In this document: piece by piece, positions 38,332-50,656 of the stretch | Numbering within the stretch: position 1 is the stretch's first letter | How the letters are laid out: the number at the start of each line of letters is the position of its first letter | Notes under the pieces: model-generated | Databases searched by the model: none | Told to the model about the DNA's origin: nothing | What the model saw: only the letters and a program-made list of their open reading frames with translations | NCBI GenBank assembly: GCA_017307855.1 | Contig: JAFKGD010000002.1 | Location: 700,984 to 764,983 of the forward strand | DNA from: Burkholderiales bacterium | GTDB lineage: Bacteria; Pseudomonadota; Gammaproteobacteria; Burkholderiales; Burkholderiaceae_C | DNA length: 64,000 nucleotides | Direction of reading: 5' to 3' | Made by a program: the position numbers and the translations under genes

Positions 38332-39096
38332 GTGATCGCCGGAGAACTCAAGCCCGTCCTGTCGGCGCTGGTACTGCCACCGGCGGGTCCGTTGCTGCTG
38401 ATGGCTCTGGCCGGCCTGCTGGCGTGGCTTCGCTGGCGGCGCCTGGCCTGGCTGGCGGGCGGCACGGGCGCCGCATCGCTGTGGTTGCTGTCGTGCCAGG
38501 CCGTGGCCGTGGCGCTGGCCGCGCACCTGCTGCCGCAGGTCTCGCCGACACGGCCCGAGGTGTTGCGCGCGCTGGATGTCCAGGCCATTGTGGTGTTGGG
38601 CGGCGGCATCGACGACCCGTCGCCCGAGTACGGCCATCCCCAACCCTCGCCCAGCACCCTGGTGCGCCTGCGCTACGGCGCACACCTGGCGCAGGCCACA
38701 GGCCTGCCATTGGGCTTCGCGGGCGGCGTGGGCTGGGCCAACGCCGGCACCGGCGTGGCATCCGAAGCGCAGGCTGCCGAGTCCGCGCTGGCCGCCTGGC
38801 GGCTGCCGCTGCGCTGGCGCGACGACCAGTCGCGCGACACGGGCGAGAACGCCATGCGCATGAAAGAACTGCTGGCGCGCGAGGACATCACGCGTATCGC
38901 CGTCGTCACGCATGCCTGGCACATGCCGCGTGCACTGCATCACTTCCGCGCACAGGGCTTCGAGACCGTCGTGGCCGCGCCCACGGCGTTCATCCTGCCG
39001 CAGTCGCGGCTGCTGATGCAGTGGCTGCCGGGCGACAGCGGCCTGTCCGACAGCCGCGCCGTGCTGCGCGAATGGCTGGCGCTGCGGCTGCTCTAG
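38332..39096 (+). CDS. YdcF/ElyC-like DUF218 protein
   Basis: 254 residues with a GTG start. Two N-terminal membrane spans (about 10-35 and 44-66), then a cytoplasmic- or periplasmic-side DUF218 domain with IVVLGGGI, RLRYGAHLA, SRDTGENAMRMKELL and VVTHAWHMPRA, the signature of ElyC-type envelope-biogenesis proteins. The stop codon is shared with the convergent SDR gene through a CTAG. Confidence 0.88.
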   Translation: MIAGELKPVLSALVLPPAGPLLLMALAGLLAWLRWRRLAWLAGGTGAASLWLLSCQAVAVALAAHLLPQVSPTRPEVLRALDVQAIVVLGGGIDDPSPEYGHPQPSPSTLVRLRYGAHLAQATGLPLGFAGGVGWANAGTGVASEAQAAESALAAWRLPLRWRDDQSRDTGENAMRMKELLAREDITRIAVVTHAWHMPRALHHFRAQGFETVVAAPTAFILPQSRLLMQWLPGDSGLSDSRAVLREWLALRLL

Positions 39097-39911
39097 TACG
39101 CGGTACGCCCGCCGTTGGCTTCCAGGCATGAGCCGGTGATCATGCGCGACTCGTCGCCGGCCAGAAACAGCGCGATGCGGGCGATGTCTTCCGGTTCGCC
39201 GACCCAGTAGGGATAGGTGCGTGCGATCTCCTCGGCGCGGAAGTGGTCGCTGCCCTGCCCCGGTTGGCCGCCCGGCATGCCATAGGCCTGGCGTACGCGC
39301 TCGGTGTTGATGCGCCCGGCGCAGATGGCGTTCACACGCACGCCGGAGCGCGCATACGCACCGGCCAGCGCCCGCGTGAGCGAGTTGACCGCGCCCTTGG
39401 CCGACGCGTAGGCATGGGCCCGGCCGGTGCCCAGCAGGGCGGCGCCGGACGACATGTTCACCACCGTGCCACCTCCACTGTCGATGATGGCGGGGATGGC
39501 GTGGCGGGCGGTGAGCAGCGTGCCGCGCAGGTCCAGCGTCAGCGTGCGCTCCCAGACCGCGAGATCGAGCTCGGTGGCCAATCCGTCGTCGGGTGCCGAG
39601 CCGCCCACGGAGTTGAACAGTGTGTGCAGTTCGCCAAAGCGCTGGCGCGCGCCGGCCACCAGCTGACGCACGCTGTCTTCGTCCGTCACGTCCACCGCGA
39701 AGGCCTCAGCCTGGCAGCCCGCGTCGCCCAGGGCCCGGGCCAGCGAACGCACCGCGTCCAGGCGGATGTCGGCCAGCGCGACGCGAGCGCCCTCCTGGGC
39801 GAACAGCGTGGCCGTGGCGCGGCCGATGCCGGTGCCCGCGCCCACGACGAGGGCGACGCGGCCCTGCAGCCGCCCGGCCGCCGTGGCGGTGGCAGCGGTG
39901 GTCGCGCTCAT
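39093..39911 (-). CDS. Short-chain dehydrogenase/reductase
   Basis: 272 residues. Rossmann motif VGAGTGIG near residue 23, NNAG-equivalent FNSVGGS, catalytic Ser in NMSSGAALLGTG and YASAK with Tyr/Lys. The TGSCLEANGG end is typical of classical SDRs that oxidise a secondary alcohol. Last gene of the amidase operon, coupled to the Bug gene by ATGA. Confidence 0.93.
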   Translation of the reverse strand: MSATTAATATAAGRLQGRVALVVGAGTGIGRATATLFAQEGARVALADIRLDAVRSLARALGDAGCQAEAFAVDVTDEDSVRQLVAGARQRFGELHTLFNSVGGSAPDDGLATELDLAVWERTLTLDLRGTLLTARHAIPAIIDSGGGTVVNMSSGAALLGTGRAHAYASAKGAVNSLTRALAGAYARSGVRVNAICAGRINTERVRQAYGMPGGQPGQGSDHFRAEEIARTYPYWVGEPEDIARIALFLAGDESRMITGSCLEANGGRTAY

Positions 39912-40873
39912 TCGACCTTGATACCGGTCTTGCGGATGAAGTCGCTCCAGTACTGGACCATGTCCGTGAACTGCTTCTGCTGTTCCTGCGGCGAGTTCGG
40001 GATCAGCTCCAGCCCCAGCTCGCGCGTACGCGCCACCACGGCCGGGTCGGCCATCGCGCGGCGGAAGATGTCGTTGAGCGCCTTCACGCGGGCATCGTCG
40101 GTGCCGGCCGGTGCGTACAGGCCCCAGTAGGTGTCGGCGTTCATGCCCTGCACGCCAGACTCCTTGAAAGTGGGCACGTTGGGGAGCAGCGGGCTGCGGG
40201 TGTCACTGGTGACGGCCAGGGCCTTGAGCTTGCCCGAGGCCAGGTGGGCCTGAGCCGTGGTGGTGCCGCCGAAATAGATCTCGACCTGGCCGCCCAGCAG
40301 CGCATTCATCGCCGGCGCCACGCCCTGGAAGGGCACGTGCACGATGTCCAGGCCCGTGGCGAGCTTGAACATCTCGCCGGCCATGTGCGTGGATGCGCCG
40401 TTGCCGCCCGAGGCGAAGTTGAGCGAACCGGGCCGGGCCTTGGCCATCGCCATCAGCTCCTGCAGCGTGTTGGCGGGCACGTTGGCATTCACCAGCAGCA
40501 CCAGCGGTGCCTTGGCCAGGCCGATCACGCCACGGAAATCCTTCGTGGTGTTGTAGGGCATGTCCTTGAGCAGGCTCGGATTGACCACGATGGCCAGGTC
40601 GGCGACCAGCAGCGTGTGGCCGTCGGCGGGCGCGCGCGCCACGGCCGACGATCCGATCGTGGAGGCGCCGCCCGGGCGGTTCTCGATGACGAATTGCTGG
40701 CCGGCGGCGGCGGAGGCGGGCGTCTGCAGCAGGCGGGCCAGGATGTCGCTGGTGCCGCCGGCCGGGAACGGGACGATCAGCCGCACCGGCCGGTCGGGGA
40801 AGGTCGCAGCGGCCACGCTGGTGGCGAGCACGCACAGGGCCAGCAGGCCGGATATCTTTCGCATGAGTTTCAT
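39908..40873 (-). CDS. Bug-family periplasmic solute receptor in the amidase operon
   Basis: 321 residues from MKLMRKISGLLALC; signal peptide to about residue 23 (VAA-ATFPDRP). FPDRPVRLIVPFPAGGTSDILAR (split), VIENRPGGASTIG, PADGHTLL and the ligand loop GGNGASTHMAGE. Overlaps the DapA-like gene and the SDR gene by four bases on either side, so it is firmly inside the operon. Again no TctAB partner. Confidence 0.95.
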   Translation of the reverse strand: MKLMRKISGLLALCVLATSVAAATFPDRPVRLIVPFPAGGTSDILARLLQTPASAAAGQQFVIENRPGGASTIGSSAVARAPADGHTLLVADLAIVVNPSLLKDMPYNTTKDFRGVIGLAKAPLVLLVNANVPANTLQELMAMAKARPGSLNFASGGNGASTHMAGEMFKLATGLDIVHVPFQGVAPAMNALLGGQVEIYFGGTTTAQAHLASGKLKALAVTSDTRSPLLPNVPTFKESGVQGMNADTYWGLYAPAGTDDARVKALNDIFRRAMADPAVVARTRELGLELIPNSPQEQQKQFTDMVQYWSDFIRKTGIKVE

Positions 40874-41886
40874 GGGGGGTCCTCGAGAAGGGTGGAGGGA
40901 ACAGGTGATCGGTCGGACAGCAGGCCGGCCTCGGCGAGGATGGCCACGCATTCCTGCAGCTCGGCCGGCGCGGGCGGCGACAGCGGCGGACGCACGCCGC
41001 CGCCTTTCAGGCCGAACAATGTCGTGAGCTCCTTGGCCAGGCCGACGTTGTGGAAGCCCTGGGCGAAGTAGCGGCTCTGCAGCTTGTCGGCGATGGCCAC
41101 GATGCGCCGCACGGCGGTGGCCGCGGCGGCGAAGTCGCCCGCGTCCAGCGCCGCCAGGAAGTCGGCGCAATGCGGCTGCGCCTGCGATTGCACGAACAGG
41201 GGCCTGGAAGAGCCGAACATGAAGTCGGGCGCGCGGTCGGGAAACGCCAGGCGGCCGAAGAGGTGGTATTCCTCCAGCGAGGTCGTCACGCTCACGCGAT
41301 CGCCCACGCGTTCCATCATGGCCGCGTAGCTGGACATGTTGAGGGTGGTGCTCATCACCGCGGCCAGATGCTCGATGTGCAGCAGCCGCGCGGCCATCTC
41401 CGGCGTGAGGTAGAAGCCCAGTTCGGCGAGCGTGGTGCTGTAGCAGAACATGCCGATGTCGATGCGCTCGGCCACCTGCTCGTAGAAGGTGCGCACGCCG
41501 TCCGCGGTGCGCACGCCGTAATAGGGCGGCCACACCATCACGGCGTCGGCCCCGGCGTGTTGCGCGTGGCGCGCGAAGTCGACCACGTTGGCCACCGCCG
41601 GATCCGAGCAGCCCACCACCACGGGCTTGCGGCCGGCGACGGTGTCCAGCACCACGTCAGCCACGCGCTTGCGCTCGGCCACGGTCATGGTCCAGAACTC
41701 CTGGTGCAGCGAGTTGACGGCCAGTCCGCCCACGCCGGGATGGCGCAGGGTCAGCTCGGTGTTGTGGCGCAGGCCGTCTTCGTCGATCCGGCCGTCGGGC
41801 AGGAACGGCGTGTAGAGCACGGTGATGTAGCCGTGAAGGTTCTGGCGGATCCAGGTGCGCGCGTCGGCGCGGGCGTAGCGTGGCAT
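40870..41886 (-). CDS. DapA-family protein lacking the Schiff-base lysine
   Basis: 338 residues. TIM-barrel opening LHGYITVLYTPFLPDGRIDEDGL (split) and GVGGLAVNSLHQEFWTMT match dihydrodipicolinate synthase-family aldolases and lyases; Tyr149 (FCYSTT) is at the place of the catalytic Tyr. The canonical GIKE segment that follows about 28 residues later reads AVMST, with Met178 where the Schiff-base Lys should be, so classical pyruvate chemistry is doubtful. Longer C-terminus than DapA. Coupled to the Bug gene by ATGA; 34 bases follow the amidase stop. Confidence 0.85.
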   Translation of the reverse strand: MPRYARADARTWIRQNLHGYITVLYTPFLPDGRIDEDGLRHNTELTLRHPGVGGLAVNSLHQEFWTMTVAERKRVADVVLDTVAGRKPVVVGCSDPAVANVVDFARHAQHAGADAVMVWPPYYGVRTADGVRTFYEQVAERIDIGMFCYSTTLAELGFYLTPEMAARLLHIEHLAAVMSTTLNMSSYAAMMERVGDRVSVTTSLEEYHLFGRLAFPDRAPDFMFGSSRPLFVQSQAQPHCADFLAALDAGDFAAAATAVRRIVAIADKLQSRYFAQGFHNVGLAKELTTLFGLKGGGVRPPLSPPAPAELQECVAILAEAGLLSDRSPVPSTLLEDPP

Positions 41887-41919
41887 GGCAGGTGTCCGTT
41901 TCTTTCAGGGCCGCACACC

Positions 41920-43368
41920 TTACGCCGTCGCGGCGCCGGACACCGGCGGACGGCGATGCGCCCAGGGCGCCGCCTGCTCCAGCTGCGCCGACAGCTGCAG
42001 CAGCCGGTCTTCGCGGCCGAACGGCGCCAGCAGCTGGCAGGCGACGGGCAGGCCACTGGCACTCCAGTGCACCGGCAGGCAGGCCGCGGGCAGGCCGGCG
42101 GCGTTGATCACGGCGAGGAAGGGCGTGTAGCGCGCCACCTGGCGCCGGAACTGCGTGAAGCTGGCCACCTGCATCGAGAGTTCGCCCAGCGGCACCGGCA
42201 GCCGCGCCAGCGCGGGCGTGAGCACCATGTCCACGCCGGCCATGGCATGCGCGAATGCGCGGCCGATGGCATGGAAGCGCTGGATCGCGCCCAGGTAGGT
42301 GGTGGCCGTCATGCGCGCGCCGTGCTCGTAGCCTTCCCGCATCGCAGGTTCGAGATCGTCCGGCCGCAGCGCGCGGCCGAGCGCCGCCAGGCGGGCATCG
42401 GTCGACGCCTTGATGTTGGCAGCCATGACGTCGATGAGTGCCTGGATGAAGGCTGCATAGTCGAGGGCCGGGGTGGCCGCATCGATCACCTCGTGGCCGA
42501 GCTGGCGGCACAGGCCTGCGCCGCGTTCGAGCGCCGCGAGCGGCTCGGCCTCGACCTCGATGCCGTCCCAGGCCTCGCGCCAGACCGCGATGCGCAGCCG
42601 CGCGGGCCGCTGCTCCAGCAAGGCCCGGTAGGAGTTGGGGCGTGCGGGCGCCGCATACGGCGCGCCCGGCTCGTCGCCGGCAATCGCGTCCAGCGCGGCA
42701 GCGGTGTCGCGCACCGAGCGGCTGAGCACGCCGTCGCAAGCGAGGCCGCCCCAGCCTTCGCCACGCGACGGGCCCATGGGCACGAGACCTCGCGAGGGCT
42801 TGAGGCCGTAGATGCCACAGCAGGCGGCGGGAATGCGGATCGAGCCGCCGCCGTCGCTGCCGTGCGCCAGCGGCACGATGCCGGCCGCCACCGCGGCGGC
42901 GGCGCCACCGCTGGAGCCGCCGGCCGAGCGCGACAGATCCCACGGGTTGCGCGTGGGGCCGCCGTTGGCCGCGGCCTCGGTGGTCGGCGCCATGCACAAC
43001 TCGGGCACTGTGGTGCGCGCGAACGGGATCAGGCCGGCGGCCTCGAAGCGCTCAACCAGCGTGGCGTCCTGGGCATAGCGCATGTCGGCGAACAACCGGG
43101 AGCCCAGGCCCGAGGCCAGCCGCGTGGAGGCCAGCCCCGAGTCCTTGAGCAGGAACGGCAGGCCCCGGAACACGCCGCGCGGCTGCCAGTCGCGCGCCCA
43201 CAGGCGGGCGGCGTCGAAGTCGGCGTGGCACAGCGCATTGAGCGCCGGGCCGCGCTCGCGCGCCAGCGCGATGGCGCAGTCCATCAGCTCCGCCGGCGTG
43301 ACGTCGCCGGCGGCCAGCCGGGCGGCCAGGCCGAGCGCGTCGTGGGCCTGGTACTCCTCAGGCGTCAT
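41920..43368 (-). CDS. Amidase signature-family hydrolase
   Basis: 482 residues. The Ser-cisSer-Lys triad is complete: Lys75 (PFLLKDSG), cis-Ser in [11 protein letters not shown] (152-153) and nucleophile Ser176 (GGGSIRIPA). Hydrolyses a carboxamide to acid and ammonia. ALNALCHAD and the [10 protein letters not shown] segment are normal family parts. Its start overlaps the preceding alpha/beta hydrolase gene by 11 bases. Confidence 0.95.
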
Positions 43369-44176
43369 GCGCCAGCGCGCGGTGGCGCTCGAGGAAGCTC
43401 AGCAGGTCGGCCACGCAGCGGTCGGGCAGGTACTCGCAGATGCTGTGGCGCTCGCCTTCGTACACCAGCACTTCCGCGCGCGGCACGCATTCGCGCATCG
43501 GGCGGTAGACGTCGGCGGCGCCGATGCGGCCGGCGCCGGGCACCACGACCAGCGTGGGGCAGTGGATGCGGTGCAGCTGGTCGGCCCATTCCTGCTGCGA
43601 CATGTAGCCGACGAAGCGGCCGATGAAGGGCACGTCGTTGTCCGACAGCGCGTCGAGGAAGTGCTCCACCTGCGGCGTGCCGGCCAGATGCGGCGGAAAA
43701 CGGTCGTCGATGGTGTCGGCCAGGAAGTTGCGAAGGCCCCGCTGCGCCACGTGCGCCAGCCAGCTGGAGGCCTGGCTGTTCTTCAGGCCCGGGGCCGAGC
43801 CGAACAGCGCCAGCGTCTCGATGCGCTCGGGATGCTCCATGGCCAGGTGCTGGCCCACGTAGCCGCCGGCGGAGTTGCCCACGAAGTGGACGCGCGCGCA
43901 GCCGAGATGGTCCATCAGCGCCAGCGTGTCGCGCATCAGGACCTGCATCGACAGCTCCGACGCCGGCGCCGGCACGCTGCTGTGGCCGTGTCCGCGCATG
44001 TCCATGCGCACCACGCGATAGCGTCGTGCCAGCCCCGGCACCCAGGGCGCGAAGCGCTGGGCGTTGGCCATGGCGCCGTGCAGCAGCAGCAGCGTGGGCG
44101 CGTCCGTCCAGGGGTCGGTGAAATCGTCGACGTAGTAGTTCAGGCGAAGGCCGTCGTGTTCGAAGAAGTCTTGCAC
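43358..44176 (-). CDS. Alpha/beta hydrolase
   Basis: 272 residues. Oxyanion loop LLLHGAMAN, nucleophile Ser102 in GNSAGG, and catalytic His in EGERHSICEYLPDRC; HCPTLVVVPGAG precedes the acid. Resembles carboxylic-ester and C-C bond hydrolases of heterocycle pathways. Coupled to the amidase downstream. Confidence 0.93.
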   Translation of the reverse strand: MQDFFEHDGLRLNYYVDDFTDPWTDAPTLLLLHGAMANAQRFAPWVPGLARRYRVVRMDMRGHGHSSVPAPASELSMQVLMRDTLALMDHLGCARVHFVGNSAGGYVGQHLAMEHPERIETLALFGSAPGLKNSQASSWLAHVAQRGLRNFLADTIDDRFPPHLAGTPQVEHFLDALSDNDVPFIGRFVGYMSQQEWADQLHRIHCPTLVVVPGAGRIGAADVYRPMRECVPRAEVLVYEGERHSICEYLPDRCVADLLSFLERHRALAHDA

Positions 44177-44210
44177 TGCGGAAAGTCCAGGGGAATGAAA
44201 GGAGATCGGG

Positions 44211-45047
44211 TCAGGCCGCGTCGCGACGCAGGTGCTCGGTGGCCACGTCGCCCAGCCGTTCGAAGCTCGCGCCTTCGTCGGACAGCCGCGCGATCAGGCG
44301 TTCGAGCATGCGCATGCGGTGGCCGCGCCCGATCACTTCGGGGTGGAAGGTGTAGGTGCAGGCACCCCACTCGAGGTGCTCGCGCATGTAGAGGAAATCC
44401 TCGATCCAGTTATCCAGCACCGCGTTGGCGTTCATCAGGCCGGGGATGGCAGTGGAGGTGCCGATGCGCGTGTATTCGAAGTGGGGAAAGTCGTCGAGGC
44501 TCCAGCTCACCGGCATTTCCAGCAGCGGTGTGGGCGCGCCGAAGACCACGGGTCCATCCGGCGGGATCACATCGCCCTGGCGCACGCGGTAGGGCGTGTA
44601 GTCGTCGGCCATCATGCTGCTGTCGTAGGTGAAGCCATGGGCCAGCAGCAGTTCGACCGAGTGCGCGCTCAGGTCCCAGGCGGGCGAGCGGTAACCGGCG
44701 GCGGGCGCGCCTGTCAGGGTGCGGATGGCTTCGTTGCCGCGCACCAGGCCCTCTTCCTCCTGCTCGCGCGTGAGGTTGCCGGGCGCGACGTGCGACCAGC
44801 CATGGTGGCCTATCTCGTGGCCGGCCTCGAACACTTCGCGGCACAGCGCGGGGTAGGTCTGGATCGTGTGGCCGGGGATGAACCAGGTCGAGCGCACGCC
44901 GTGCCGCGCCAGCAGGGCCAGCACGCGCCGTGCGCCGACCACGGCGAACTCGCCGCGCGAGATCGGCGTGGGCGTGGTGATGCCGCGCGCCAGCCACAGC
45001 GAGAGCGCATCGAGGTCGAAGGTCAGGCAGACGATGGCACGGGACAT
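44211..45047 (-). CDS. NodB-type deacetylase, allantoinase (PuuE)-like
   Basis: 278 residues. TFDLDA with Asp11/Asp13 (usual TFDDD), metal site HHGWSH (81-86), and the SPAWDLS / FTYDSSMM segments seen in PuuE-type allantoinases and cytoplasmic deacetylases rather than peptidoglycan enzymes; no signal peptide. It would hydrolyse a cyclic ureide or N-acyl bond. First gene of the minus-strand operon and immediately downstream of the shared promoter motif. Confidence 0.85.
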   Translation of the reverse strand: MSRAIVCLTFDLDALSLWLARGITTPTPISRGEFAVVGARRVLALLARHGVRSTWFIPGHTIQTYPALCREVFEAGHEIGHHGWSHVAPGNLTREQEEEGLVRGNEAIRTLTGAPAAGYRSPAWDLSAHSVELLLAHGFTYDSSMMADDYTPYRVRQGDVIPPDGPVVFGAPTPLLEMPVSWSLDDFPHFEYTRIGTSTAIPGLMNANAVLDNWIEDFLYMREHLEWGACTYTFHPEVIGRGHRMRMLERLIARLSDEGASFERLGDVATEHLRRDAA

Positions 45048-45086
45048 GGCGTTCTTCGGCGGTCGGCAAGGGGTGACGGACCGGCC

Positions 45087-45134
45087 ACTGTAGGCAGCCG
45101 CCCGCGCGCTGTGATCCGCAAAACGCCATAGCTG
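45087..45134 (-). promoter_or_regulatory. Promoter module of the deacetylase operon with LysR-type motif
   Basis: Minus-strand order: CAGCTATGGCGTTT (45134 to 45121), 28 bases, then the -10-like TACAGT (45092 to 45087), 39 bases before the operon start. The same 14 bases with the same 28-base gap and a -10-like TATATT occur in front of the Bug gene at 46408. An AAAAC-N10-GTTTT repeat (45120-45139) covers the motif. Identity and spacing make it a strong operator candidate for the adjacent LysR. Confidence 0.72.
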
Positions 45135-45268
45135 GTTTTCAGTCCCTGCAACAGGGGTTGTCGCCGATGACGCCTGCGCGCGCGGCAGCTAGCATGCTTA
45201 TTGCGTCCGCCCTCTGTTTCACGTCCTCCTGCGCGCCGTTGCGTCCGGCCGCGCGCGCCTCCTCCCGA

Positions 45269-46216
45269 ATGACCAAAGCCAGTACCCTCCAGCTCGACAT
45301 CACCGCCAACCTCCAGCGCTGGAAGATGTTCGTGGCCGTGGCCGAGGAAGGCACGCTCACCCGCGCGGCGCTGCACCTGGACAGCAACCAGACCGCGCTC
45401 AGCCGCCACCTGACGGCGCTGGAGCTGCAATGCGGCGCGCGCCTGTTCGAGCGCACCGGCCGCGGCGTGAAGCTCTCCGAGACCGGCGCGCGCATCCTGC
45501 CCCAGGTGCGCGACCTGCTCGCGCAGGCCGAGCAGCTCGAGCTCGACATCCGCGGCAAGACACGCCCGCTGTCGGGTCTGGTGACGATGGCGCTGATGCC
45601 CTCGGTGGCGCAGAACATCGTGGGGCCACTGTTCTCGTTCCTGCGCACGCACCATCCCGGCGCGCGCCTGCGCGTGCTCGAGGGCGCGAGCGGCAAGGTG
45701 GAGGAATGGCTGGCCGACGGCCGCGCCGACATCGGCCTGCTCTACCGCTATCACACGCCGCTGCCGGCGAACGAAACCGCGCTGCTGGCCACCGATGCCT
45801 ATCTGGTGGGTGGCCGCGGCGACCGCGCCACCGCGCGCGCCACCGTGCCTTTCCACCTGCTCGCCGACCTGCCGCTGGTGCTGCCGAGCGCGCCCAATGG
45901 CCTGCGCCATGCCATCGAGGTGCGGGCGCGTGCGGCCCGCGTCACGCTCTCGCCCATCATCGAATCGGATTCACTGGCCCTGCTCAAGTCGCTGGCGATG
46001 AACGAGAAGGTCAACGTCATCCTCTCGCACCATGCGCTGGGCGAAGACCTCGCCAGCGGCCGGCTGCAGGCGGCCCGCATCGTCGATCCGTCCATCACCG
46101 CCACGGTGTCGATCGCCCGCAGCAAGGCCAAGGCACCCAGCAGCACCGTCGAACTGGTCTCGCGCAAGGTGACCGAGCTGGTGCAGGCGGCCAGCCTCGA
46201 CGGCGCCCTGGCCTAG
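45269..46216 (+). CDS. LysR-family regulator of the amidase locus
   Basis: 315 residues from MTKASTLQLDITANLQRWK; the longer in-frame start at 45158 is unlikely because it would begin inside the promoter region. HTH with GTLTRAALHLDSNQTALSRHLTALE (split) and CGARLFERTGRG, then the effector domain (ALMPSVAQNIVGPLF, PNGLRHAIEVRARAA). Divergent from the deacetylase operon and followed on the same strand by the Bug and TPP genes; both flanks carry the same motif. Confidence 0.92.
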   Translation: MTKASTLQLDITANLQRWKMFVAVAEEGTLTRAALHLDSNQTALSRHLTALELQCGARLFERTGRGVKLSETGARILPQVRDLLAQAEQLELDIRGKTRPLSGLVTMALMPSVAQNIVGPLFSFLRTHHPGARLRVLEGASGKVEEWLADGRADIGLLYRYHTPLPANETALLATDAYLVGGRGDRATARATVPFHLLADLPLVLPSAPNGLRHAIEVRARAARVTLSPIIESDSLALLKSLAMNEKVNVILSHHALGEDLASGRLQAARIVDPSITATVSIARSKAKAPSSTVELVSRKVTELVQAASLDGALA

Positions 46217-46267
46217 CACGCTTGCGCGCGCGTGCATGGCGCCGGGCGGATTGCGGCGGATGCAATG

Positions 46268-46315
46268 CAGCTATGGCGTTTGCCGAAACACCCTGCAGCG
46301 CGCCTTTCCTATATT
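46268..46315 (+). promoter_or_regulatory. Second copy of the LysR-type motif with promoter
   Basis: CAGCTATGGCGTTT (46268-46281), 28 bases, TATATT (46310-46315), with 92 bases to the Bug start. Base-for-base match of the 14-mer and the same spacing and orientation as in front of the deacetylase operon. Sequence outside the motif is mostly different, so this is not a simple recent duplication of the whole region. Confidence 0.72.
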
Positions 46316-46407
46316 GATCCGGCCGGTGTGCGCCGAGCGCAGCGAGCAGACGACCGCGCGGCAGGCCGCGCGGTGCCCGCCCCCAACCCCTTGCCCTGAT
46401 CGACACC

Positions 46408-47376
46408 ATGCCATCCATCCGCATCCTGACTTTCGCCCTGGCGGCCGCGTTCGCCATGCCCGCGCTGGCACAGCAGGCCACGTTCCCCAGCCGGCCGATC
46501 AAGCTGGTGGTGCCCTTCCCTGCCGGCGGCGGAGGCGACCTGCACGGCCGCCTGCTGGGCCAGAAGATGTCGGAGACGCTCAAGCAGCCGGTGGTGATCG
46601 AGAACCGCGCCGGCGCCAACGGCAACATCGGCTACGGCTCGGTGGCCAAGGCCGCGCCCGACGGCTACACGGTGCTGCTGGGCGGCGCCAACCTGACGAT
46701 GGCGCCCTTCATCTACCAGAGCCTGCAGTACAACGTGCGCACCGAGCTCGCCCCGGTCTCGCTGGTGGCGCGCATCCAGAACGTGTTCACCGTGCGCACC
46801 GAACACCCGGCACGCACGCTGCAGGACCTGCTGGCCCAGGCGCGCGCCAATCCGGGCAAGGTCAACTACGCCTCTTCCGGCGCCGGTGGCAGCCCCCACC
46901 TGAGCATGGAGATGCTGCGCAACCTCGCCAAGGCCGACATGACGCACGTGCCCTACCAGGGCGACCAGGCTGCCTTCCTGGGCCTGATCGGTGGCTACGT
47001 CGACATCTACTCGGCCCCCATGGCTGGTGCCATGCCGCTGATCGAAGGCGGCAAGTTGCGCCCGCTGGCCGTCACCGCGCGCAGCCGCTCGCCGCTGCTG
47101 CCCAACGTGCCGACGGCGGCCGAGGCGGGCGTGCCCGGCTTCGAGCTCGAATCGTGGTGGGGCCTGTTCGTGCCCGCGGGCACGCCCGCGCCCATCGTCG
47201 AAGCGCTCAACGCCGCCGCCGTGCAGGCCCTGCGCGATCCCGAGGTCCGCCAGAAGCTGCTGGTGGCGGGCTCCGAGGCCTCGCCCAGCACGGCGGCCGA
47301 GCTCGGCCAGATCGTGCAACGCGACCTGGCGAAGTACGAGCAACTCATCAAGGCGGCCAACATCCAGCCCCAGTGA
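46408..47376 (+). CDS. Bug-family periplasmic solute receptor
   Basis: 322 residues from MPSIRILTFALAAAF; signal cleaved near ALA-QQAT. FPSRPIKLVVPFPAGGGGDLHGR (split), VVIENRAGANGNIG, AAPDGYTVL and the loop GAGGSPHLSMEML. Fourth Bug receptor of the window. Lies between lysR and the TPP enzyme, preceded by the shared promoter motif, so coinduced with the amidase operon by inference. Confidence 0.95.
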   Translation: MPSIRILTFALAAAFAMPALAQQATFPSRPIKLVVPFPAGGGGDLHGRLLGQKMSETLKQPVVIENRAGANGNIGYGSVAKAAPDGYTVLLGGANLTMAPFIYQSLQYNVRTELAPVSLVARIQNVFTVRTEHPARTLQDLLAQARANPGKVNYASSGAGGSPHLSMEMLRNLAKADMTHVPYQGDQAAFLGLIGGYVDIYSAPMAGAMPLIEGGKLRPLAVTARSRSPLLPNVPTAAEAGVPGFELESWWGLFVPAGTPAPIVEALNAAAVQALRDPEVRQKLLVAGSEASPSTAAELGQIVQRDLAKYEQLIKAANIQPQ

Positions 47377-47470
47377 CCCTCGCGGCCGCGCCGACCGGTG
47401 GCGTGGCCCGCACAGCCTGCACCAGCGGCCCGGCGGGCCGCTTCGTCTTTTCGTTCCCATCCCGCACAAC

Positions 47471-49159
47471 ATGTCTCCCGCATCACTGCCGCGTACTGGC
47501 GGCCAGTTGCTTGTCGAGCAACTCATCGCCTTCGGCACCGAACGCGTTTTCCTTGTGCCCGGCGAGAGTTTCCTGCCGTGCCTGGACGCCTTGCACGACC
47601 ACGCGGCGCAGATCGCCACCGTCGCCTGCCGCCACGAAGGCGGCGCGGCCTTCATGGCCGAGGCCCACGGCAAGCTCACCGGCCGGCCCGGCATCTGCTT
47701 CGTTTCGCGCGGGCCGGGCGCCACCAACGCCGCCATCGGCGTGCACACGGCGCGCCAGGACTCCACGCCGATGATCCTGTTCGTCGGCCAGGTGGGCGGC
47801 GACACGGTGGACCGCGAGTGCTTCCAGGAAGTCGATTACCGCCAGCTGTTCGCGCCGCTGGCCAAGTGGGCCGCGCAGATCGAGCGCGCTGACCGCATTC
47901 CCGAGTACGTGGCGCGCGCCTGGGCCGTGGCCACCAGTGGCCGCCCCGGCCCCGTGGTGCTGGCGCTGCCCGAAGACATGCTGGCCACGCTCGCCGGCGT
48001 GCCGCTGGCACCGTTGCCCGCCGCCGCACGGGCCGAGCCCGCCGTGGCCGACCTGCAGCAGCTGCAGGCCGCGATCGAGTCGGCGCGCGCGCCGCTCCTA
48101 TTGCTGGGTGGCAGCGGCTGGGACGCGCAGGCGCGCGCCGACTTGCAGGCCTTCGCGGAGCGCTTCGCGCTGCCGGTGGCCGTGGCCTGGCGGCGGCTGG
48201 AACTGTTCGACAACCGGCATCCGAACTTCGTCGGCCAGGTCAGCCCGAGCATGCCGCAGGCGCACCGCGCGCTGCTGGAGGCCGCCGATCTCGTACTGGC
48301 GGTGGGCACGCGGCTGTGCGAGCCGACCACGCTGGGCTACGGCTGGCTGCAGTCGCCGCGGCCTTCGCGCCGGCTGATCCACGTGCACCCTGACAGCGGC
48401 GAGATCGGCCGGCTGTGCGTGCCCGAGCTCGGACTGGTGGCCAGCCACGCCGGCTTCGCGCGGGCCGCGGCGCGGCTGGTGCCCACGCGGCCGCGCGCCC
48501 GTCCCGACATACCAGCCGCGCCGCCGCTGCCGCCGATGCCGGGCCCGCTGGACCTCAACGAGGTCGGCCGGACGGTGGCGCGCATGCTGCAGCAGCGGCC
48601 CGCCTGCGTGACGGCGGGCGCGGGCAACTACGCGCTCTATGCCCACCGCCACATCGCCTTCGACGGGCTGGGTTCGCAGCTCTCGCCGGCCACGGGCGCC
48701 ATGGGTTACGGGTTGCCTGCGGCCATCGCGGCGGCGCTGCACGACCCGGACCGCACGGTGGTGTGTTTCGCGGGCGACGGCTGCTTCCAGATGACGATGC
48801 AGGAGATGGGCACGGCTGCGCAACACGGGCTGGGTCTGGTCGTGCTGCTGTTCAACAACGCCTCGTTCGGCACCATCCGCCTGCACCAGGAGCGCGCCTA
48901 TCCGGGCCGCGCGCAAGCCACCGACCTCGTGAACCCGGACTTCGCCGCGCTCGCTCGCAGCTACGGCGGCCTGGGCCGCGTGGTGACGCGCACGGAGGAG
49001 TTCGCGCCCGCGTTCGAGGAAGCGCTGGCGCACGCCGCCGCGCACCGGCGTCCTGCGCTGCTGGAGCTGCGCTACGACGCCGAACTGATCCTGCCCGACC
49101 GCACGCTGTCGCAGGTGCGTGAAGCGGCGCGGGCGGCGGCGACTCGGGCCGCCGGCTGA
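47471..49159 (+). CDS. Thiamine-diphosphate enzyme of the acetolactate synthase family
   Basis: 562 residues. Three-domain TPP enzyme: Glu56 in CRHEGGAAF activates the cofactor, FVSRGPGATNA and the C-terminal TPP/Mg motif GDGCFQM..NN (with FNNASFGTI). Members include acetolactate synthase, glyoxylate carboligase, oxalyl-CoA decarboxylase and sulfoacetaldehyde acetyltransferase; no regulatory-subunit gene is near, so a catabolic lyase or decarboxylase role is likelier than biosynthesis. Starts 94 bases after the Bug gene. Confidence 0.92.
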   Translation: MSPASLPRTGGQLLVEQLIAFGTERVFLVPGESFLPCLDALHDHAAQIATVACRHEGGAAFMAEAHGKLTGRPGICFVSRGPGATNAAIGVHTARQDSTPMILFVGQVGGDTVDRECFQEVDYRQLFAPLAKWAAQIERADRIPEYVARAWAVATSGRPGPVVLALPEDMLATLAGVPLAPLPAAARAEPAVADLQQLQAAIESARAPLLLLGGSGWDAQARADLQAFAERFALPVAVAWRRLELFDNRHPNFVGQVSPSMPQAHRALLEAADLVLAVGTRLCEPTTLGYGWLQSPRPSRRLIHVHPDSGEIGRLCVPELGLVASHAGFARAAARLVPTRPRARPDIPAAPPLPPMPGPLDLNEVGRTVARMLQQRPACVTAGAGNYALYAHRHIAFDGLGSQLSPATGAMGYGLPAAIAAALHDPDRTVVCFAGDGCFQMTMQEMGTAAQHGLGLVVLLFNNASFGTIRLHQERAYPGRAQATDLVNPDFAALARSYGGLGRVVTRTEEFAPAFEEALAHAAAHRRPALLELRYDAELILPDRTLSQVREAARAAATRAAG

Positions 49160-49205
49160 ACATCGGCAGGGCGAGGCGGCCGGGGCCGCCGCCCGGTCAT
49201 GAGGT

Positions 49206-50489
49206 TCACGAGGCGCGGATCGCGGCCTCCAGCGCGTCCAGTCCTTCGTCCAGCAGCGCGTCGCCGATGGTCAGCGCGGGCAGGAAGCGGATCACGTTGG
49301 CATGCACGCCGCAGGTGAGCAGCAGCAGCCCGCGTTCGAGCGCGCCCTGCTGGATGCGGGCCACCCGCGCGGCGTCGGGTGCGCCGGTGGCCGCGTCGTG
49401 GAACTCCACCGCCACCATGGCGCCCAGCGCACGCACCTCGGCGATCGAAGGCACGTCGGCGCGCAGCGATTCGAGCCGCGTCACCAGCCGCTCTCCGAGC
49501 TTGGCCGCGCGTGCCACCAGGCCCTCGTCTTCGATCACGCGCAGCACTTCCAGCGCGGCCGCCACCGACAGCGGGTTGCCGGCATAGGTGCCGCCCAGGC
49601 CGCCGGGCTGCGCCGCGTCCATCAGTTCGGCGCGGCCGGTCAGGGCCGACAGCGGGAAGCCGCCCGCCAGGCTCTTGGCCGTGGTCACCAGGTCGGCGGC
49701 CACGCCGTGGTGTTCCATCGCGAACAGGCGCCCGGTTCGCCCGAAGCCGGTCTGCACTTCGTCGGCCACCAGCAGGATGCCGTGCGCATCGCACAGGGCT
49801 CGCAGATGGCGCAGCAGCGCCGTGGGCGCGATGTAGAAACCGCCTTCACCCTGCACCGGCTCGATGAAGATCGCGGCCACGCGGCGCGGATCGACGTCGG
49901 CCTTGAACAGCTTCTCCAGCGCGGCGATGCTGTCGTCCACGCTCACGCCCAGCGTCGGCGCAGGAAACGGCACGTGCCAGACGTCGGCCGGCATGGCGCC
50001 GAAGCCCAGCTTGTAGGGTGCGACCTTGCCGGTCAGCGCCATGCCCATCAGCGTGCGGCCGTGGAAGGCGCCCGAGAACGAGATCACCGCATTGCGGCCG
50101 GTGGCCGCGCGCGCCACTTTCACGGCGTTCTCCACCGCTTCGGCCCCGGTGGTGAAGAGCGCGGTCTTCTTGGCGAAGTCGCCGGGCAACAGGGCGTTGA
50201 GCTGTTCGCACAGCGCCACGTAGCTTTCGTAGGGCGTGACCTGGAAGCAGGTGTGGTGGAACGCATCGAGCTGCCGCTGCACGGCGGCGACGACGCGCGG
50301 ATGGCGATGGCCCGTGGCCAGCACCGCGATGCCGCTGCCGAAGTCGATCAGGCGGCGGCCTTCCACGTCCCAGACCTCCGAGCCGCTGGCGCTGGCGGTG
50401 AAATGCCGCGTCTGCACACCGACGCCGCGCGGACAGGCGGCCTGGCGGCGGGCTTCGAGATCGAGGTTCTGGGTGAGGCGTTGGTTCAT
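49206..50489 (-). CDS. gabT: 4-aminobutyrate transaminase
   Basis: 427 residues from MNQRLTQNLDLEARRQ, matching E. coli GabT length (426); an ATG at 50516 would add nine residues. Fold type I aminotransferase: TTGAEAVENAVKVAR, GAFHGRT, IFIEPVQGEGG, LVADEVQTGFGRTG and PLP Lys272 in TTAKSLAGG. Converts GABA and 2-oxoglutarate to succinate semialdehyde and glutamate. The divergent XRE-cupin gene is its probable regulator. Confidence 0.93.
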   Translation of the reverse strand: MNQRLTQNLDLEARRQAACPRGVGVQTRHFTASASGSEVWDVEGRRLIDFGSGIAVLATGHRHPRVVAAVQRQLDAFHHTCFQVTPYESYVALCEQLNALLPGDFAKKTALFTTGAEAVENAVKVARAATGRNAVISFSGAFHGRTLMGMALTGKVAPYKLGFGAMPADVWHVPFPAPTLGVSVDDSIAALEKLFKADVDPRRVAAIFIEPVQGEGGFYIAPTALLRHLRALCDAHGILLVADEVQTGFGRTGRLFAMEHHGVAADLVTTAKSLAGGFPLSALTGRAELMDAAQPGGLGGTYAGNPLSVAAALEVLRVIEDEGLVARAAKLGERLVTRLESLRADVPSIAEVRALGAMVAVEFHDAATGAPDAARVARIQQGALERGLLLLTCGVHANVIRFLPALTIGDALLDEGLDALEAAIRAS

Positions 50490-50552: not shown

Positions 50553-50578
50553 GTGAAAATTTGAGATGCAATTTTCAC
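50553..50578. promoter_or_regulatory. Perfect palindrome between gabT and the XRE-cupin regulator
   Basis: GTGAAAATT (50553-50561), eight bases, AATTTTCAC (50570-50578), no mismatch in the nine-base arms. AT-rich in a GC-rich context, 64 bases upstream of gabT and about 80 bases before the regulator start. Very likely the binding site of the XRE-cupin regulator on both divergent promoters. Confidence 0.65.
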
Positions 50579-50656
50579 AAAGCTGATGTGCGTCGGTTGT
50601 TCGATCACACGAAGCGGCATACTGCGGGCCCCCGCGTTCCGCAGAAGACCCCGCCC

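Follow-up and report, generated by a model that had tools for sequence, protein, structure and literature searches.

Two predicted operators of a LysR-type regulator flank its gene and face two arms of a Burkholderiales locus

In a 64,000-nucleotide stretch of DNA from a Burkholderiales bacterium (hereafter, the window), a lysR gene lies between two sets of genes, and an identical 14-base sequence, CAGCTATGGCGTTT, stands in front of each set. This arrangement raises the question of whether the two copies mark operators through which the LysR protein encoded between them controls both arms. The lysR gene (45269..46216, plus strand) encodes a protein of 315 amino acids with an N-terminal HTH_1 and a C-terminal LysR_substrate domain, both above their Pfam gathering scores; we used the ATG at 45269 as its start, which fits the alignment with relatives, and the list of open reading frames also allows a TTG at 45158. 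Divergent from lysR, the predicted target operon runs on the minus strand from position 45047 and comprises genes for a polysaccharide-deacetylase family protein (44211..45047; PF01522), an alpha/beta hydrolase (43358..44176; PF00561), an amidase (41920..43368; PF01425), a DHDPS-family enzyme (40870..41886; PF00701), a Bug/TctC solute receptor (Bug1, 39908..40885, start approximate; PF03401) and, as the last gene of this arm, a short-chain dehydrogenase (SDR, 39093..39911; PF13561). The forward arm, on the plus strand, begins with a second Bug/TctC solute receptor (Bug2, 46408..47376; PF03401), which is followed by a gene for a thiamine-pyrophosphate (TPP) enzyme (47471..49159; NCBIfam NF006052, over its cut-off). 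A terminator-like hairpin with a T-rich tail, found between these two genes by sequence pattern search (47424..47442, plus strand), could limit read-through from Bug2 into the TPP gene; two such hairpins were found in the region, against 3.0 expected by chance.

A scan of genome contigs for close orthologues of the whole locus returned a single match, at 27%, and the DHDPS-family protein had no match at E<=1e-60 in 398 other genomes of the family. Gene-order conservation was therefore unusable as evidence, and the divergent operon may be rare among the genomes searched. The solved structures nearest in sequence to the regulator were other LysR-family chains (E of about 5e-14 and weaker), too distant for a ligand to be assigned from them. 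No sigma-70 consensus promoter was found in 38900-49400, where 0.4 would be expected by chance; weak -35 regions are at least consistent with dependence on an activator.

The 14-base repeat was located at 45134-45121 on the minus strand and at 46268-46281 on the plus strand, and direct counting gave a gap of exactly 28 nt from each copy to a TACAGT or TATATT hexamer, so that the places, strands and spacing given in the preliminary description all held. We then searched the bacterium's own genome (4,991,047 bases in 17 contigs) for further copies. Both known copies are exact and a third was absent even at one mismatch, which argues against a widespread repeat; a reversed control of the sequence had no exact match and, when up to one mismatch was allowed, matched once on each strand. 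Some 14-mer was common to the two intergenic regions (221 and 191 bp) in 56 of 20,000 dinucleotide shuffles, a test that counts any shared 14-mer in either orientation. Exact 14-mer pairs are frequent in this GC-rich window, which contains 300 direct and 255 inverted ones compared with about 90 and 97 in ten shuffles. The pair by itself is thus moderately unlikely to be due to chance, and the earlier wording, that such a match was very unlikely to arise by chance, was fair, although the 14-mer alone does not make the case overwhelming. Outside the repeat, the two promoters agree at 12 of 29 bases leftward and at 12 of 28 bases in the spacer. With flanks so little alike, the two promoter segments do not form a duplicated block. 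Allowing one mismatch, 11 bases of CAGCTATGGCGTTT matched only three times outside the own genome among loci L001-L033 (in L009, L031 and L032), and none of these matches had a -10 box at the window's spacing within the bases inspected.

Relatives of the regulator offered an independent route to its recognition site. In a family search of 399 genomes, its own included, close relatives were present in 16 other genomes at 50-54% identity, with the next matches at no more than 39%; an order-wide sample, also of 399 genomes, added two more, at 51 and 47%. These 18 proteins average 71% identity among themselves and are less like the window protein, at 47-53% when measured on one common alignment and 47-54% over all comparisons. 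The identity is unevenly distributed. The DNA-binding domain of the window protein is 61-73% identical to those of the relatives (42-53% for 13 distant LysR proteins) and its recognition region 64-82% (27-55% for the same distant proteins), compared with 44-51% for the sensor domain. Judged by these identities, the DNA-reading helices appear closer to those of the relatives than the sensor domain is.

What the relatives have in common is a dyad, not CAGCTATGGCGTTT. In the DNA 3' of lysR, many of them carry GCATAGCWGNNWTGC or a near match, with a -10-like box about 34 nt further on. The dyad was first spotted by eye in the 18 relatives, and a symmetric 15-bp matrix was trained on these same 18 loci, with the own genome excluded and without using the -10 box to choose sites; it settled on GCATAGC-W-GCTATGC with 83 sites. 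When 82 of these sites were read in both directions, TANNNT occurred 55 times at 0-79 nt from the dyad centre, and 38 of the 55 fell at 41-43 nt (41 nt, n=4; 42 nt, n=24; 43 nt, n=10); CCTACAGTG is present at 42-43 nt in L035, L045 and L048. Relatives with the -10 box at 42 or 43 nt have a conserved T 23 nt before it, at what would be the first base of a -35 box spaced by 17 bp. By inspection, this T is missing from both window sites and from four relatives with the 41-nt distance. Operators of LysR-type regulators typically, but not obligatorily, contain T-N11-A; inspection of the 15-base consensus GCATAGCWGCTATGC revealed none inside it.

We combined the dyad and the -10 box into a composite model of 40 relative sites. 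Of 48 sites first listed, eight scored low for the dyad and were excluded from the training set, and the 40 retained include a dubious one (L046:2511-2576), whose -10 lies beside a likely ribosome site. In a held-out test, for which the sites of each locus (and, for two groups, those of its genus) were removed from the matrices while the distance weights still came from the full set, all 18 relative loci had a match above 13 bits, and in 16 of the 18 a match of 22.9-32.8 bits adjoined lysR. Among the loci of the 13 distant LysR proteins (about 3.9 kb each), best scores ranged from 6.8 to 18.9 bits, and three exceeded 13 bits (14.2, 17.0 and 18.9).

Applied to the window, these relatives-only matrices recovered both repeat regions. 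Operator 1 (45126..45140, minus strand; dyad GAAAACC-A-GCTATGG, left half degenerate) faces the deacetylase operon and is centred at 45133, 41 nt from the -10 box TACAGT (45087..45092, minus strand). Operator 2 (46262..46276, plus strand; dyad GCAATGC-A-GCTATGG) faces Bug2 and the TPP gene and is centred at 46269, again 41 nt from its -10 box, TATATT (46310..46315, plus strand); both distances follow from direct count and from the composite model. By the 15-bp matrix alone, operator 2 ranked second in the window and operator 1, which has one good half-site only, tenth. With the composite model, over about 128,000 oriented positions, operator 2 came first (21.7 bits) and operator 1 second (21.3 bits), followed by a third match at 12.4 bits, and 60 shuffled windows combined gave one match at the scores of the two operators. 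Both operators score below all 16 of the held-out lysR-adjacent relative sites (at least 22.9 bits) and use the rarest of the three distances, 41 nt, found in 4 of the 40 relative sites. The recognition element itself had to be redrawn: the preliminary description took it to be the 14-mer, and it appears instead to be the 15-bp palindrome, which covers no more of CAGCTATGGCGTTT than its first 9 bases and leaves the trailing CGTTT outside the relatives' consensus.

A sequence profile of the whole promoter (66 nt, 39 sites) was also built. With this profile, operator 1 was the second-best match of the window and, at E 0.13, the fifth of the genome; operator 2 was not among the profile's 63 matches in the whole genome and scored 4.4 bits in the window, probably as a result of a spacer richer in A and T than those of the relatives, penalised by a profile in which GC-rich spacers dominate. 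We preferred the model of dyad and -10 box to this profile. The window's best match by dyad alone (ACAAAGCTGATGTGC, 50577-50591) falls at the beginning of an open frame resembling, by eye, an XRE-type regulator, and is outside the 14 best composite matches in the window.

How specific the dyad is to this regulator was gauged from its occurrence elsewhere. Of the 399 family genomes, 65 contained a strict core, GCATAGCWGVBWTGC; they comprised 12 of the 16 with a close LysR relative and 53 of the 382 others. When places were compared by hand, lysR had a copy no more than 10 kb away in 9 of those 12 genomes. An exact match to the strict core is absent from the own genome, and CWGCTATGSC is not enriched there (48 matches, 56 for the reversed control). 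Over 146,825 own-genome bases around CWGCTATGSC and other places, only the two window operators reached 15 bits. A degenerate dyad consensus occurred at 91 own-genome places, compared with 33 for the control. Fifty of the 91 were scored (15 in loci, 32 fetched, 2 in earlier loci and 1 in the window), and these included the dyads of argD and of an open frame plus several at 15-17 bits; further regulon members may lie among the other 41. The open-frame dyad, in L120, scored 22.1 bits. At the scores of the window operators, roughly one match per genome would be expected by chance, as estimated from the 60 shuffled windows, so that the argument rests on two matches flanking one lysR gene and not on score alone.

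The argD dyad sets a limit on what geometry can tell. In the own genome, a gene named argD by its appearance (acetylornithine-aminotransferase-like), not by a family scan, is preceded by a perfect dyad, GCATCGC-A-GCGATGC (GCATCGCAGCGATGC; L121:1501-1515, that is, C6:73810-73824), 42 nt before TAGAAT, with a score of 28.5 bits. All 20 other genomes checked contain argD (21 matches), and in L167, L168, L169, L171, L174 and L180 the corresponding dyad is GCATNNCWGTGATGC, about 42 nt before a CCTARAAT-like box. The argD dyad exceeded 20 bits in 5 of 16 genomes with this LysR (L167, L168, L169, L171 and L174, three of them from one genus) and in one of four without it (L180), two others of the four scoring 14.7 and 17.5. 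We considered the argD dyad as a site of this LysR and rejected it, because such dyads also occur in genomes without this protein and most of them have GTGATGC as their right half; it probably belongs to a different regulator whose sites share this geometry. Since argD dyads share the outer GCA..TGC and the spacing, these two features cannot alone identify this LysR, and the earlier use of motif plus spacing as the mark of one regulon stands only with that restriction.

We consider it likely, with a probability of about 0.85, that the two 14-mers mark two operators of a typical LysR activator, encoded between them and controlling the two arms. The earlier reading of one LysR protein with two sites is thus supported, as both the dyad and its distance to the -10 box recur beside the relatives and the DNA-binding region is conserved. 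Three other explanations were weighed. Shared 14-mers are common in so GC-rich a window, and the link between the two regions in 56 of 20,000 shuffles would leave room for a chance or repeat-derived match with no function. We regard this as very improbable, given that the flanks lack the likeness expected of a duplicated block, that CAGCTATGGCGTTT has no third copy in the genome and that the two sites came first and second by a model that had never seen them. It is distinctly unlikely, too, that the operators are real members of the dyad class and are bound by another LysR-type protein, the adjacent lysR being incidental. Such a protein would explain why argD dyads keep the same -10 distance in some genomes with and some without this LysR, and why the strict core turns up in 53 of 382 genomes lacking a close relative of it. 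It would leave unexplained, however, that sites adjoin this very lysR in 16 of 18 relative loci, that both window sites flank the gene, that the DNA-reading region of its product matches those of the relatives and that the inner AGCTATG is unlike GTGATGC, which most argD dyads have as their right half.

The remaining alternative concerns the division of labour between the two sites. LysR proteins often repress their own gene. The dyad of operator 1 is the weaker of the two, with 12.6 bits compared with 15.7 for operator 2, and its centre lies 136 bp upstream of the lysR start in an intergenic region that both directions share; operator 1 might serve mainly for autoregulation by repression, which would leave operator 2 as the sole activating site. 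Its -10 box, however, is on the deacetylase side at the relatives' distance, and read in the opposite direction operator 1 scores only 7.5, so that we think this division unlikely. If the reading of two activating operators is right, a dimer or tetramer of LysR would sit on each dyad, about 53 nt before the putative transcription start. The promoters have a poor -35, and the inducer-bound protein would contact RNA polymerase, acting as an activator, not a repressor. The inducer would perhaps be a small carboxylate or amide imported with the Bug receptors. Both arms would then be switched on, that is, the putative deacetylase-hydrolase-amidase-DHDPS-Bug-SDR operon together with the forward Bug gene and perhaps the TPP gene. 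The response of all eight structural genes to this LysR, as proposed in the preliminary description, remains a prediction.

The genes that the relatives appear to control differ from those of the window. By reading, the gene after lysR starts like the CMD-family protein of L034 in 13 of the 18 relatives, only the L034 protein among these having been scanned with Pfam. The gene in that place in the window is the Bug gene, and a relative's CMD-family protein finds nothing closer in the own genome than a match of 35% identity. For each of the 40 relative sites, a downstream gene was proposed by a simple rule, which yielded several clearly false frames. Ten real-looking genes gave Pfam assignments to a carboxymuconolactone-decarboxylase-family protein, a family III CoA-transferase, two Bug/TctC receptors, an enoyl-CoA hydratase, a flavin reductase, a porin, a ketopantoate-reductase-family protein, an alpha/beta hydrolase and a tannase-family esterase, and so represent mostly catabolic and uptake functions. 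The two arms of the window are of the same general kind, with other enzymes. As the genes controlled in the window differ from those of the relatives, target conservation could not be used as evidence. Several copies of the operator occur in each of the neighbourhoods of L034-L037. Some are arranged back to back between two divergent genes, which are those for CoA-transferase and Bug in L035 and L036 and those for Bug and a porin in L037.

Together, these comparisons suggest a tentative scenario, somewhat short of even odds in our estimation, in which the DNA-binding surface of the LysR protein, its operator and the spacing of operator and -10 box stayed the same while the sensor domain diverged and the gene set was exchanged. 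If this were true, the LysR operators would in effect have been co-opted by a new catabolic cluster with two arms. Bug receptors form a large class, most of them with unknown substrates, and this LysR group is often found near their genes. The dyad and its distance to the -10 box provide a testable operator and promoter geometry for the group; knowing the operator helps to predict the genes of each regulator and hence what is taken up. An exact repeat noted on first reading has in this way become a well-supported regulon prediction once relatives were used.

In open-access papers, we found no literature description of GCATAGC with LysR-type regulators and recognised none of this dyad in the topic-level literature. 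The regulation proposed is of the ordinary LysR kind; what we did not find described is its recognition site. One report (PMC6449761) describes CatR, CatM, BenM and ClcR as LysR-type activators of catechol and benzoate genes, with the motif AkACC-N5-GGTAT and T-N11-A. It also describes, for aromatic metabolism in Betaproteobacteria, a LysR gene divergent from its target operon and COG3181 (TctC/Bug-type) genes as predicted targets. The window resembles these systems in its 15-bp inverted repeat, its divergent lysR and the TctC/Bug-type genes among the predicted targets, and differs from them in the letters of the dyad and in having no T-N11-A within the 15-mer and no catechol genes (PMC6449761). 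The argD promoter dyads (L121, L167, L168, L169, L171, L174 and L180) share with the window sites the outer GCA..TGC and nearly the same -10 distance; they differ in the right half, GTGATGC in the relatives, and in being found without this LysR too, and presumably belong to another regulator. The 18 lysR loci of the relatives (L034-L049, L053 and L054) share with the window the LysR group, the dyad and the -10 distance, and differ in that 13 of the 18 have a CMD-family-like gene after lysR where the window has a Bug gene.
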